Origin: Candidatus Omnitrophota bacterium
GTDB lineage: Bacteria; Omnitrophota; Omnitrophia; Omnitrophales; JACROU01
DNA length: 34,312 bases
Assembly: GCA_029261035.1 (NCBI GenBank)
Contig: JAJDCD010000008.1
Coordinates: 1-34,312 of the forward strand
Direction: 5' to 3'
The notes under the pieces were generated by a model. That model was not told the origin of the DNA. It did no database searches and was given only the letters and a program-made list of their open reading frames with translations. The stretch's first letter is position 1; each line of letters begins with the position of its first letter. Shown here in pieces: positions 13,503 through 19,788 of the stretch. The position numbers were made by a program, and so were the translations under genes.

Positions 13503-14498
13503 CTAAGAGCAATGTATATATTTATCGACGGAAATCACGTCTTTTTTAATCTGTTTTTGTAATAAATCAACAGACCCAAATTTCTTCTCATTACGGATTT
13601 TCTTAACAAAAGTGACCTCAATGGTCCTTCCGTATAAGCTTCCTTTAAAATTGAGAATATGCAGCTCTGGAATTATCTTCTTTTTCTTATCCACCGTTGG
13701 TCTAAAACCAATGTTTAAAAGCCCCCATAACTGCTCTTTGATTATTTTGTCTTTAAGTAGGAGCTTAGCTGTATTTGCCGTTTTTTTCAAACCCATATCC
13801 AAAATATCTAGTCTTACTAAATAAACCCCTCTCGGAGGGAGAGCTTCGCTGTGTGGATTTAAGTTTGCTGTTGGGAACCCTAGCTTCTTTCCCAATCCAC
13901 GACCTTTAACAACCTCACCGAGAATTGAATAAGACCTTCCTAATAAACGACTCGCTTTTGATAAATGTCCTTTTTGAATAAAATCTCGGACAATAGAACT
14001 GCTCATGGTTTCATTACGATATTTTTTGTGCTCTGCTTGAAAAAAACGGAACTGGTACTTCTTAGCTAAATCTTTCATTAATTCGGATGTGCCCTTGCGG
14101 TTTTTCCCAAAACGAGAATCATACCCCAACACAACTTCATCCACATTTAACTGTTCCACTAAAACTTTTTTAACAAAATCCTCAGGCGAATACACACTAA
14201 ATTTGTTCGTAAAATCAACAAGAAAACAACCCTCGATTCCAAAATCACTCAACAAATGAAGCCTATGTTGTGTTGAAGTGATAAAACAAGGAGCTTTTTT
14301 CTTTTTCAATATACTTAAAGGGTGATTTTCGAAAGTAAAAACTACGGGAATCCCCTTGCGAATTCGCGCTCTTTTTTTAACTAAACTAAGCACATGCTGA
14401 TGTCCTAAATGCAATCCGTCAAAAGTCCCTAAAGTTAATATTAGAGGAGCTTTCTTTTTGATTTTTTTATACCCTTTTAGGTTTTTAACTACCCACAT
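13503..14498 (-). CDS. ribF: Bifunctional riboflavin kinase / FMN adenylyltransferase
   Basis: A 331-aa RibF. The N-terminal nucleotidyltransferase domain carries TLGTFDGLHLGHQ (about 22-34), the HxGH-like motif that makes FAD from FMN. The C-terminal flavokinase domain (about 190-331) has GRGLGKKLGFPTANL (199-213), NIGFRPT (262-268) and a catalytic Glu, probably E278 in PELHILNF. A lysine-rich loop (about 235-258) lengthens the kinase domain relative to many homologues. Its ATG overlaps the truB end by 14 nt, fitting the conserved truB-ribF pair. Confidence 0.94.
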   Translation of the reverse strand: MWVVKNLKGYKKIKKKAPLILTLGTFDGLHLGHQHVLSLVKKRARIRKGIPVVFTFENHPLSILKKKKAPCFITSTQHRLHLLSDFGIEGCFLVDFTNKFSVYSPEDFVKKVLVEQLNVDEVVLGYDSRFGKNRKGTSELMKDLAKKYQFRFFQAEHKKYRNETMSSSIVRDFIQKGHLSKASRLLGRSYSILGEVVKGRGLGKKLGFPTANLNPHSEALPPRGVYLVRLDILDMGLKKTANTAKLLLKDKIIKEQLWGLLNIGFRPTVDKKKKIIPELHILNFKGSLYGRTIEVTFVKKIRNEKKFGSVDLLQKQIKKDVISVDKYIHCS

Positions 14499-15207
14499 AA
14501 GAGTCTTCCATTGTTGCTTGAATTAAATAGTTATCTAATTCTATATTTATATTTTTCGCTTTAACATGTTGTATAGGTAAGGATTTTTCTACAGAATACG
14601 CTCCTGATGAAATACGTCTTAAAACATTTAGTGAAGCTCCCACATTCAAGGCTTTTCCAATATCTTCGGCTAAAACACGAATATAAGTCCCTTTAGACAC
14701 CTTCGCTCTAAATTGAACGAAAGGAAGATCAACTTTCAAGATTTCCATAGATAAAATTGAAATTTTTCTACTGTCCCGATCAACCTCTTTTCCCTTTCTG
14801 GCCAAACGATATAGCGGAGTCCCATTAACTTTGATTGCTGAAGTCATTGGGGGCTTTTGCCACTGCTCCCCAATAAAAGATTTCATCTTATTTACAATCT
14901 CTTCTTCTGAGAGATGCTCGACGCAATTTTCAGCTAAGACATCCCCATCAGGGTCTCCCGTTGAGGTTGTTAATCCTAGATGTATCGTTCCTTCATACTC
15001 TTTTTCATCACATAAGCTTTGTGAGGAAATTTTCGTAGCTTTATTTATAAACAAAACCATAAGTCCTGAAGCAAACGGATCCAAAGTCCCTCCGTGTCCA
15101 ACCTTTTTAAATCGGAAACGTCCCTTTACTACCTGACAAATATCATTGGAAGTCCAGCCAGGTTCTTTGTCTATAAGTAAAATACCAGATTTTTCATTCG
15201 GATTCAT
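14485..15207 (-). CDS. truB: tRNA pseudouridine(55) synthase TruB
   Basis: A 240-aa TruB that isomerises U55 of the tRNA T-loop. The catalytic Asp is D43 in GHGGTLDPFASGLM. Other signatures are KEPGWTSNDI (14-23), KEYEGTIHLG and SKGTYIRVLAEDIG. The chain ends soon after the core domain, so it lacks the PUA domain found in longer homologues such as E. coli; such short forms are known. ATG has TGGAG at good spacing and begins 26 nt after rbfA. Confidence 0.95.
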   Translation of the reverse strand: MNPNEKSGILLIDKEPGWTSNDICQVVKGRFRFKKVGHGGTLDPFASGLMVLFINKATKISSQSLCDEKEYEGTIHLGLTTSTGDPDGDVLAENCVEHLSEEEIVNKMKSFIGEQWQKPPMTSAIKVNGTPLYRLARKGKEVDRDSRKISILSMEILKVDLPFVQFRAKVSKGTYIRVLAEDIGKALNVGASLNVLRRISSGAYSVEKSLPIQHVKAKNINIELDNYLIQATMEDSYVGS

Positions 15208-15233: not shown

Positions 15234-15605
15234 TTAGGACTGTTCTTCTGAAGATTCTGATTTTTCATCTTGAATTTTTTTGAGAATACTTTCAATATGC
15301 ATCGTATTTTCTAATGTACGATCTATCTCAAAAGATAATCTAGGGGTAACTCGGAGATTAATCCCTCTTGCTATTTCTTTTTGCAGGAAACCTTTAGAAT
15401 GATTTAGTGCAGCCTCTGAAGACTTTTGAACTTTTTCTTCTCCTAAAACACTGAAATATACTTTTGCATTTTTTAAATCCGGAGAAACAGAAACACGAGT
15501 AATGGTAACAAATCCTAAGCGGGGATCTTTGATCTTTGTGATTACGTGCTGACTAAGCGTTTGCTTAATCAGAGCTTCAATTTTTACTTTACGACTTCCC
15601 TGCAT
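15234..15605 (-). CDS. rbfA: 30S ribosome-binding factor RbfA
   Basis: A 123-aa RbfA with the single KH-like fold that helps mature the 16S rRNA 5' end of the 30S subunit. The family pattern includes RKVKIEALIKQTLSQ at the N-terminus, DPRLGFVTITRVSVSPDL in the centre, and RVTPRLSFEIDRTLE near the end. It ends in a short acidic Ser/Glu tail. A TTG four codons upstream (15617) could also start it, but the ATG at 15605 is preferred, with GAGG upstream. It starts 19 nt after infB. Confidence 0.93.
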   Translation of the reverse strand: MQGSRKVKIEALIKQTLSQHVITKIKDPRLGFVTITRVSVSPDLKNAKVYFSVLGEEKVQKSSEAALNHSKGFLQKEIARGINLRVTPRLSFEIDRTLENTMHIESILKKIQDEKSESSEEQS

Positions 15606-15624
15606 AGCTTCTATCAACCTCTGA

Positions 15625-17733
15625 TCAAACTAATTTTGTAGCGACCTTTTCAATCTTATAAGCTTCAATAATATCGTTTTCCTGAACATCCTTAAAACCC
15701 TCTACCACAATACCACAGTCATGACCTTCGGCAACATCCTTAACATCATCCTTAAATCTCTTTAAGGAACTCATCTTTCCATCGAAAGCAACAATACCTT
15801 CTCGGATTACTCGAATTCGATTATTCCTCGAAATCTTACCCTTCGTAACCATACAACCTGCAATAATTCCTAATTTAGAAGATTTGAATTTCTGCTGAAC
15901 AAGAGCTTCCCCCTGAATAGATTCTTTCAATGTGGGTTCCAATAACCCTTCCATAGCATTTGTAATATCCTGAACAGCTTCATATATAATGCTATAAAGA
16001 CGAATATCAACACCTTCCTTTTGTCTAATAGGTTCCGCTTTTTGGTCCACTTTTACATGAAAACCAATAATAATCGCATCGGAAGCTGCTGCTAACATAA
16101 CATCAGACTCATTAATTCCTCCGACACCCGCATGGATAGTTTTTAACTTAATTTTTTCAGAAAGTATCTTCTCTAAGGATTGTTGTAACGCTTCTATGGA
16201 CCCTTGCACATCTGTCTTAATAATCATTCTCAATTCTTTTATATCTCCAGATTCAATACCAGAAAATAAATCATCTAAACTGATATGCTTGGAAAACTGC
16301 GCTGATAATTCTTTTTCTCTAATTTCAAGCAAACGTTTTTCAGCAATTTTTTTAGCTGTCTTATCATCAGGAGCAACAAAAAAGGATTCGGCAGACTCTG
16401 GAACACCAGACAAACCTAAAATTTCAACTGCTCGCGATGGCCCAGCTTCTTTAACGGTCTTCCCCCTATCATTATGCATTGCTCTAATTTTTCCATAAAA
16501 CTGCCCGCAAATTACGATATCCCCTAACTTCAATGTCCCATTTTGGACAATTACAGAGGTAACAGCTCCATGACTTTTTGTTAACTTACTTTCAATAACG
16601 GTTCCCTGAGCAGAGCCCCCAGGGTTTGCTTTTAATTCTAAAATTTCAGACTCTAAAAAAAGCATTTCTAAAAGATCCGGAATTCCTTGACCCGTTTTTG
16701 CAGAGACAGGAACAAAAATTGTTTTTCCACCCCGATCTTCAGACACCAACCCATGACTCTGAAGTTGAGTCTTTACTTGTTCGAAATTCGCTGAGGGTAA
16801 GTCTATTTTATTAACTGCAACAACAATAGGAACATCAGCCGCCATAGCATGATCAATAGCCTCAACTGTTTGAGGTTTAGGGCCATCGTCGGCAGCAACA
16901 ACCAATACAACAACATCCGTTACATTAGCCCCCCTTGAACGCATAGCTGTAAAAGCTTCATGCCCCGGAGTATCCAAAAATGTTACAAACCCTTTTCCTG
17001 GTATTTGAATTTCATAAGCTCCAATATGCTGAGTAATCTTTCCAGATTCCTTAGAGGCTAAATTACTTTTCCTAAGAGCGTCTAATAGAGAAGTCTTCCC
17101 GTGATCCACATGCCCCATCAGAGTTACAACAGGTGGGCGCATAACTAAATCCTCACTTCTATCAACTTTTTTCAATTCCTTTAAAAGAAACTCTTCTTCA
17201 GAGGGTGCTTTTTCAATAATAATTTCACATTTATTAGCAACAAGCTCACATATCTTTTCATTCAATAATTGATTTACATTTGCGAAAATTCCCACATCCA
17301 TTAAAAGTTTAATAAGAGCAGCTGTTTTTAAATTTATATGAGTTGCCAACGCACCTACAGTTATTGGCATTTTTACAGTTATAACTTTTAAATCCTTCTT
17401 TTCTTCAACAACCGCTTCAGCAACAACTTCCTTACTTGGCTCAACTTCAACAGCAGCTTCCGGAATGTCTTCTGATTTCACTTTTTTCTTTAATTTTAAA
17501 GATAAAGGCTTTTTAACCTTTTTCGGTACTTCTTCAACTTTAGCTTCAGTGGACTCATTAGGCTTATCCCCTTGAGTAGAAGATCCCCCTACTAAGGATT
17601 TTCTTAAAGCAGCAACTTCCTCGTCACTTATAGCAGACATATGGTTTTTAACGTCAAAGCCTAAACTTTTCGCTAAAACAACCAAATCTTTACTTGGTTT
17701 ACCTATTTCTTTTGCAAGTTCATGTATTCTCAT
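15625..17733 (-). CDS. infB: Translation initiation factor IF-2
   Basis: A 702-aa IF-2, the GTPase that brings initiator fMet-tRNA to the 30S and promotes subunit joining. The N-terminal IF2_N subdomain (1-48) is followed by a short charged Lys/Glu/Ala/Val linker (about 50-115), a second IF2_N-like region, and the G domain. The G domain shows G1 GHVDHGKT 207-214, G3 DTPGHE 254-259, G4 NKID 308-311 and SAKTGQG for G5. Domains II to IV follow. The protein is shorter than the E. coli alpha form mainly because the linker is short. It begins 8 nt after nusA, with GAGGA upstream. Confidence 0.97.
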
Positions 17734-19058: not shown

Positions 19059-19090
19059 TCAAATTCTCCTACAGAGATATAATTTATCCC

Positions 19091-19120
19091 TAAAATAAAA
19101 AATGGGCCAACAGGCCCATT
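19091..19120 (-). terminator. Strong intrinsic terminator/attenuator in the nusA leader
   Basis: A perfect 8-bp stem: plus-strand 19101-19108 (AATGGGCC) with 19113-19120 (GGCCCATT), 4-nt loop. On the minus strand it is followed by TTTTATTTTA. It lies 57 nt past the stop of the HAMP gene and 42 nt before the nusA start, and downstream of the promoter at 19146-19173. It therefore acts on both read-through from the HAMP gene and the nusA promoter's own transcript. Confidence 0.85.
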
Positions 19121-19145
19121 CGTCCTAACTTCTAATTTGTTAGAT

Positions 19146-19173
19146 ATTATAGGATGATTTTAAGTGTTGTCAA
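19146..19173 (-). promoter_or_regulatory. Consensus sigma-70 promoter for the nusA operon
   Basis: On the minus strand a perfect TTGACA (19173-19168) is separated by 16 bp from a perfect TATAAT (19151-19146). The expected start of transcription is near 19138-19141. The -35 box begins 4 nt after the stop codon of the HAMP gene. The transcript would meet the terminator hairpin after only about 20 nt. A 5-bp inverted repeat (19125-19129 with 19139-19143) lies at its 5' end. Confidence 0.75.
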
Positions 19174-19176
19174 TCA

Positions 19177-19734
19177 TTAACACTCCTGCTTTAGCTTATC
19201 CAGGAGCTGCTTCATACTCTGAGATGTTTCTGGGGGTAATTGACCTAGAGGAAGTTTCTGAATCTCTAAAACAATCTGATCTTTCTTTTCCTTCTTACTC
19301 CTCATTAACTCTAAGACTTTATTGATTTCATCTGCTATATCCTTATAAAAGTCGTTTGTTCTAAGCTTAATATTTGAAGGAATCTGCCCTTTAGCTATCT
19401 GTTTCAAAGTAACACGAAAACGGTAAATAGGCCCTCCTACACGATGTAAAAATTTAATGCTCAGAAAAGCCGAAACAACAATAGTTACTAGTAGAGCAAT
19501 AGTCACCCTAACAGTAATCAAGTAGTTAATACTCGACATTACCTCATAAGGACTAATTTTACCTAAACGATAGGGTCCACTCATCATAGTATCTCTAATA
19601 GTCCAATTGACTAAAACAGAAATTACGATAGCAGAAATAAAGAGAATAATAACCATCAAGAACGTATATTCTTTCTGCATCTGCGGATCAATAAGTAATG
19701 TTTTTACACTTCTTTTATGTTGATATTTCGGCAT
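19177..19734 (-). CDS. Small HAMP-domain membrane protein without output domain
   Basis: A 185-aa protein with two membrane helices (about 23-45 and 71-93), a short loop of about 25 residues between them, and a HAMP-like segment (about 94-145) starting FLHRVGGPIYRFRVTLKQI. A charged, helical C-terminus (146-185) follows. There is no kinase, methyl-accepting or cyclase output domain, so any signal would have to pass to a partner. GGPIYRF-type HAMP proteins of this size occur in several phyla and their role is not established. The ATG at 19734 has GGAGG 5 nt upstream; a TTG start at 19788 would overlap the -35 region and is rejected. Confidence 0.7.
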   Translation of the reverse strand: MPKYQHKRSVKTLLIDPQMQKEYTFLMVIILFISAIVISVLVNWTIRDTMMSGPYRLGKISPYEVMSSINYLITVRVTIALLVTIVVSAFLSIKFLHRVGGPIYRFRVTLKQIAKGQIPSNIKLRTNDFYKDIADEINKVLELMRSKKEKKDQIVLEIQKLPLGQLPPETSQSMKQLLDKLKQEC

Positions 19735-19757
19735 ATCCCCTCCACCACTTTCAATAC

Positions 19758-19769
19758 TAAGTATACTTA
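19758..19769. repeat. 12-bp perfect palindrome over the HAMP-gene -10 box
   Basis: TAAGTATACTTA is a perfect palindrome. It covers the whole -10 hexamer of the minus-strand promoter for the HAMP gene. Its placement suits a repressor operator, but no regulator is identified. Confidence 0.4.
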
Positions 19770-19788
19770 CTTTTTTGCCAAGTTTCAA
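19760..19788 (-). promoter_or_regulatory. Promoter of the HAMP-domain gene
   Basis: On the minus strand TTGAAA (19788-19783) lies 17 bp from TATACT (19765-19760); each hexamer matches the sigma-70 consensus at five of six positions. Transcription would start near 19753, giving a leader of about 20 nt that includes the GGAGG site. Confidence 0.55.

Follow-up and report, generated by a model that had tools for sequence, protein, structure and literature searches.

The rimP leader described by Naville and Gautheret in 2010 is a terminator upstream of rimP-nusA-infB whose stem has the conserved pattern GGGc...gCCC. It has no antiterminator, and its motif was not observed in other terminators (PMC2965389). 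NusA was named as the likeliest effector of this element, with feedback by RimP also mentioned as possible (PMC2965389). In B. subtilis, NusA is autoregulated through NusA-stimulated termination in the 5' leader (Mondal 2016, as relayed in a review, PMC12288461), and in S. agalactiae a short RNA upstream of rimP-nusA ends 31 nucleotides past the start (PMC4448216). Regulation by NusA of the operon that encodes it has been reported in E. coli as well (PMC6511841), and U-tract interruptions are reported to be common in NusA- and NusG-dependent terminators (PMC8060035).

Here we describe an element ahead of nusA in a Candidatus Omnitrophota genome. Judged from its sequence, the element in the window (the whole stretch of DNA analysed, 34,312 nucleotides) is a real, conserved attenuator of the rimP-leader type in a setting that lacks rimP. 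The mechanism is already known; what is new is the presence of such a leader in Omnitrophota, the rimP-less setting, and the conservation of the stem at a single site.

Promoter, hairpin and operon in the window

A first-pass annotation of this DNA had described a perfect TTGACA-16-TATAAT promoter just after an upstream stop codon, followed by an 8-base-pair hairpin with a T tract and then nusA. Each of these elements is present (Table 1). On the minus strand, the upstream open reading frame ends with a TAA codon at 19179-19177, and the -35 element begins after a gap of 3 nucleotides. Transcription is predicted to start at approximately 19140-19138. The stem AATGGGCC (19120-19113) is joined through a TGTT loop to GGCCCATT (19108-19101) and is extended by a G-U pair (19121/19100), and the end of the stem is separated from the nusA ATG (19058) by 42 nucleotides. 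The 48-nucleotide leader RNA has a folding energy of -15.3 kcal/mol (z -3.8), and none of 200 shuffled sequences folded equally well. Release is predicted to occur at about 19094-19092 and would yield an RNA of ~47 nucleotides. The annotation had also noted the lack of a good second promoter between the hairpin and nusA, and indeed no further minus-strand promoter matching at least 9 of 12 positions was found in this interval.

Table 1. Coordinates of the leader elements and operon genes in the window.
Feature	Positions	Strand	Details
sigma70-type promoter	19146..19173	-	TTGACA 19173-19168, 16-nt spacer, TATAAT 19151-19146; 12/12 match
leader RNA segment, predicted start to hairpin	19122..19140	-	start predicted from -10 spacing
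terminator hairpin, rimP-leader type	19100..19121	-	8 perfect pairs plus one G-U; core TGGGC...GCCCA
U tract TTTTTTATTTT	19092..19102	-	T6-A-T4; read from sequence
nusA Shine-Dalgarno AGGAG	19066..19070	-	7 nt ahead of ATG; from sequence
nusA, 438 aa	17742..19058	-	Pfam: NusA_N, S1, KH, HHH
infB (IF-2)	15625..17733	-	Pfam
rbfA	15234..15617	-	Pfam
truB	14485..15207	-	Pfam
ribF (FAD synthetase / riboflavin kinase)	13503..14498	-	Pfam

The first 400 kb of the window's contig served as the background sample for the coincidence of promoters and terminators. Both strands of this sample together carry 2 perfect promoters, 7 promoters matching at 11 of 12 positions and 27 strong terminators. Among all promoters that match at 11 or more positions, only the nusA promoter is followed by a terminator within 80 nucleotides downstream. 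Strong intrinsic terminators are sparse in this sample, and many of them fall within 360-395 kb.

Two additional features of the window's leader were observed. Downstream of the terminator and ahead of the Shine-Dalgarno sequence of nusA, the minus strand at 19092-19072 is predicted to form a further hairpin, TAGGGATA...TATCTCTG. Moreover, a CAAATT segment in the 5' portion of the leader is predicted to be able to pair with AATTTG immediately before the nusA ATG.

Pfam assignments agree with the annotated operon order nusA-infB-rbfA-truB-ribF. The gene upstream of the promoter had been called a HAMP gene, but its HAMP_2 match is sub-threshold (E 0.0011, 19.3 bits versus a cut-off of 24.3). Comparison of this gene (19177-19788, minus strand) with locus L004 indicates that its start is likely an ATG near 19734 rather than the TTG at 19788. 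Small membrane proteins like the one encoded by this gene precede nusA in many relatives.

Conservation of the leader and loss of rimP

The named relatives of the window's NusA all belong to Candidatus Omnitrophota. Conservation of the promoter and hairpin in relatives had been set beforehand as a check, and each of the 30 distinct class members whose upstream DNA could be read, among them the window, has the order promoter, hairpin, T tract and nusA. The promoter matches at 11 or 12 of 12 positions, in the same place, in 24 of these 30. The distance from the -10 element to the TGGG of the stem is 24-41 nucleotides among the 30 relatives, with 65 in locus L019, where the -35 element was not identified, and the terminator lies 17-99 nucleotides from the start codon (159 in one case). 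The T tract is kept in the relatives, commonly with interruptions. The segment between the transcription start and the hairpin varies in sequence and in length among relatives and holds no conserved sequence.

The class stem, AAGTGGGC...GCCCACTT, is nearly invariant in the 30 relatives. Four of its eight pairs never vary, three change on one side only, and in one both sides differ, with A-U in place of G-C, as seen in the window (stem TGGGCC). Because half of the pairs are unchanging, we conclude that the sequence of the stem is kept as well as its pairing.

A search of 56 genomes with the exact pattern AGTGGGN(4-14)CCCACTTYTTT yielded 32 matches, all located at the start of nusA or rimP-nusA, compared with 2 matches for the reversed control. 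The window's own stem, with one compensated pair that differs from the class consensus, is not matched by this pattern. A covariance model derived from these leaders was used to search 58 whole genomes, and in 38 genomes of the class its top-scoring match lies directly upstream of nusA; this model was built from many of the searched genomes, and the independent information it provides is the near-absence of matches elsewhere in them. In class genomes lacking a match at nusA, either nusA was not found or it lies at a contig edge (G002, G024). The model matches inspected at sites other than nusA proved to be ordinary terminators that lack GTGGGC. A pairing antiterminator was sought in the 30 leaders, and no consistent one was found. 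An Rfam search of ten loci returned no relevant match.

The annotation's remark that rimP is missing upstream of nusA holds well beyond the window, as rimP (PF02576, PF17384) was not found in the window's genome or in its class, with the exception of genome G044. The rimP gene of G044 (locus L052, contig C307) resides on a contig with a second nusA, 44% identical, and for this reason the rimP-nusA contig is probably contamination from another class. This second rimP-nusA has an AGTGGG leader of its own, and G044's own nusA is without rimP. Across the phylum, 106 of 146 sampled genomes carry rimP, and all 106 lie outside the window's class.

In sister classes, rimP is located ahead of nusA. A promoter and an AGTGGG...CCCACT hairpin precede rimP in several of these classes (loci L043, L045, L053, L054, L057, L100, L102, L105, L113 and others), and others are without such a leader, in a scan that left 9 of 34 rimP loci unscored where the gene-placing motif was missing. 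At loci L048, L049, L050, L103 and L118, the scanned region upstream of rimP-nusA holds no recognisable leader or consensus promoter, and coding-like sequence reaches rimP, as if the genes were fused to an upstream operon. In the simplest history suggested by these distributions, the leader predates the class, rimP was lost behind it, and the leader now heads nusA.

Proposed regulation and alternative explanations

We are fairly confident that an attenuator of the rimP-leader type heads nusA-infB-rbfA-truB-ribF in this rimP-less lineage, with NusA most likely stimulating termination in a negative feedback arrangement. RNA polymerase would start at the consensus promoter and make ~20 nucleotides before reaching the GTGGGC-type stem of the terminator, where NusA carried by the polymerase would most likely stimulate termination. 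When NusA is ample, most transcripts would be shortened to the ~47-nucleotide RNA. When NusA is scarce, read-through into nusA and infB would close a negative feedback loop. Our analysis supports reading the layout, as the first-pass annotation had, as probable attenuation of the nusA operon by NusA. Sequence and comparison establish the promoter, the terminator, selection on the stem and the confinement of the element to this operon. We infer that transcripts terminate here in vivo, that this depends on NusA and which way the feedback runs, and for the NusA step we draw on work in other bacteria.

A weak hairpin or an interrupted U tract was considered as a mark of NusA dependence, and neither proved distinctive. 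The strength of the window's hairpin (-15.3 kcal/mol) is not unusually weak compared with the other terminators of the contig, and interruptions of the U tract are also present in those terminators. Because both properties are shared in this way, NusA dependence is not readable from the sequence.

It is also conceivable, with a chance that we place somewhat below even, that an effector reads the stem sequence itself and not just its stability, for example through the S1-KH surface of NusA. The leader would then be a sequence-specific sensor for nusA/infB dosage alone, and its survival after the class-wide loss of rimP would mean that RimP is dispensable for this sensor.

Alternatively, the leader might attenuate transcription through an effector other than NusA that acts on the conserved stem or the U tract, such as NusG, a different elongation factor or a signal from ribosome assembly, or the attenuation might be constitutive and simply set a level. 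We judge this unlikely, although certain features are suggestive. Distal U-tract interruptions and a TTNTTT motif are features reported where pausing and termination depend on NusG (PMC8060035), and the window has TTATTT. Furthermore, the conservation of the stem sequence exceeds what general NusA-enhanced termination would seem to need. However, the motif occurs only at the NusA-encoding operon, and a review describes the B. subtilis leader as NusA-responsive (PMC12288461).

Another explanation is that the hairpin simply terminates transcripts of the HAMP-like gene upstream, that weak read-through or a promoter escaping notice supplies nusA, and that the consensus promoter is incidental. The window has no other terminator between the upstream gene and nusA, and with the promoter only 3 nucleotides past the upstream stop codon, the hairpin may end transcripts of the upstream gene too. 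In relatives, however, the upstream gene is a different one (acyltransferase-like, desaturase-like and others) and is sometimes on the opposite strand, whereas the promoter and hairpin are retained with a constant, short spacing between them. Because the upstream gene varies in both identity and strand, the hairpin is not merely its terminator. Some relatives (L008, L028) also have an extra hairpin with a T run ahead of the promoter, and ordinary 3' terminators do not preserve the stem sequence. We therefore regard this explanation as quite improbable.

The positions of the promoter and terminator predict a discrete short RNA, and so the locus might instead produce a trans-acting small RNA of ~47 nucleotides. 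Because the segment preceding the hairpin is unconserved in sequence and length, no base-pairing seed is apparently under selection, and a trans-acting product is very improbable. Finally, RimP, the first gene product of the operon in most bacteria and the subject of the feedback possibility raised by Naville and Gautheret (PMC2965389), has a negligible chance of being the effector, because the window's class retains the leader without any rimP. The loss of rimP behind a leader that stayed amounts to a natural experiment, one that speaks against RimP and is consistent with NusA or some other component of the transcription machinery.

Comparison with described rimP leaders

These findings extend a little-studied but widespread attenuator to an uncultured class of Omnitrophota. 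The exact stem sequence is kept once per genome, and many natural variants are now at hand for testing why.

The element resembles the Rfam family RF01770 (rimP) in name, operon and terminal hairpin, and E. coli K-12 carries TGGGCtttaGGCCC followed by T7 just upstream of rimP. At its gathering score, RF01770 matched none of 20 Omnitrophota genomes, the window's own included, and E. coli was the only match among 14 controls; the model has 102 positions. This model therefore misses the general form of the leader and seems to represent the gammaproteobacterial one.

The correspondence with the rimP leader of Naville and Gautheret is more extensive. The GGGc...gCCC stem is present both in the window (AATGGGCC/GGCCCATT) and in its relatives, and the U stretch TTTTTTATTTT follows directly after the window's stem. 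The element occupies the 5' UTR of nusA-infB, and its distance of 42 nucleotides from the start codon in the window falls within the described range of 4-130. Specificity for the operon is also shared, with every one of the 32 exact matches in 56 genomes located at the operon start, as is the lack of an antiterminator or of a larger conserved RNA element in the Omnitrophota leaders. Two differences are apparent. The conserved stem is longer in the window's class (AAGTGGGC/GCCCACTT), and the operon begins with nusA instead of rimP, although rimP as first gene is the usual setting of the leader and not part of the motif.

The B. subtilis leader is ~180 nucleotides long and heads rimP (PMC2965389), whereas the window's leader is ~80 nucleotides long. 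Autoregulation by NusA has been demonstrated experimentally in B. subtilis (PMC12288461), whereas we infer it for the window. The two systems have in common a promoter, an intrinsic terminator within the leader and then the operon that encodes NusA.
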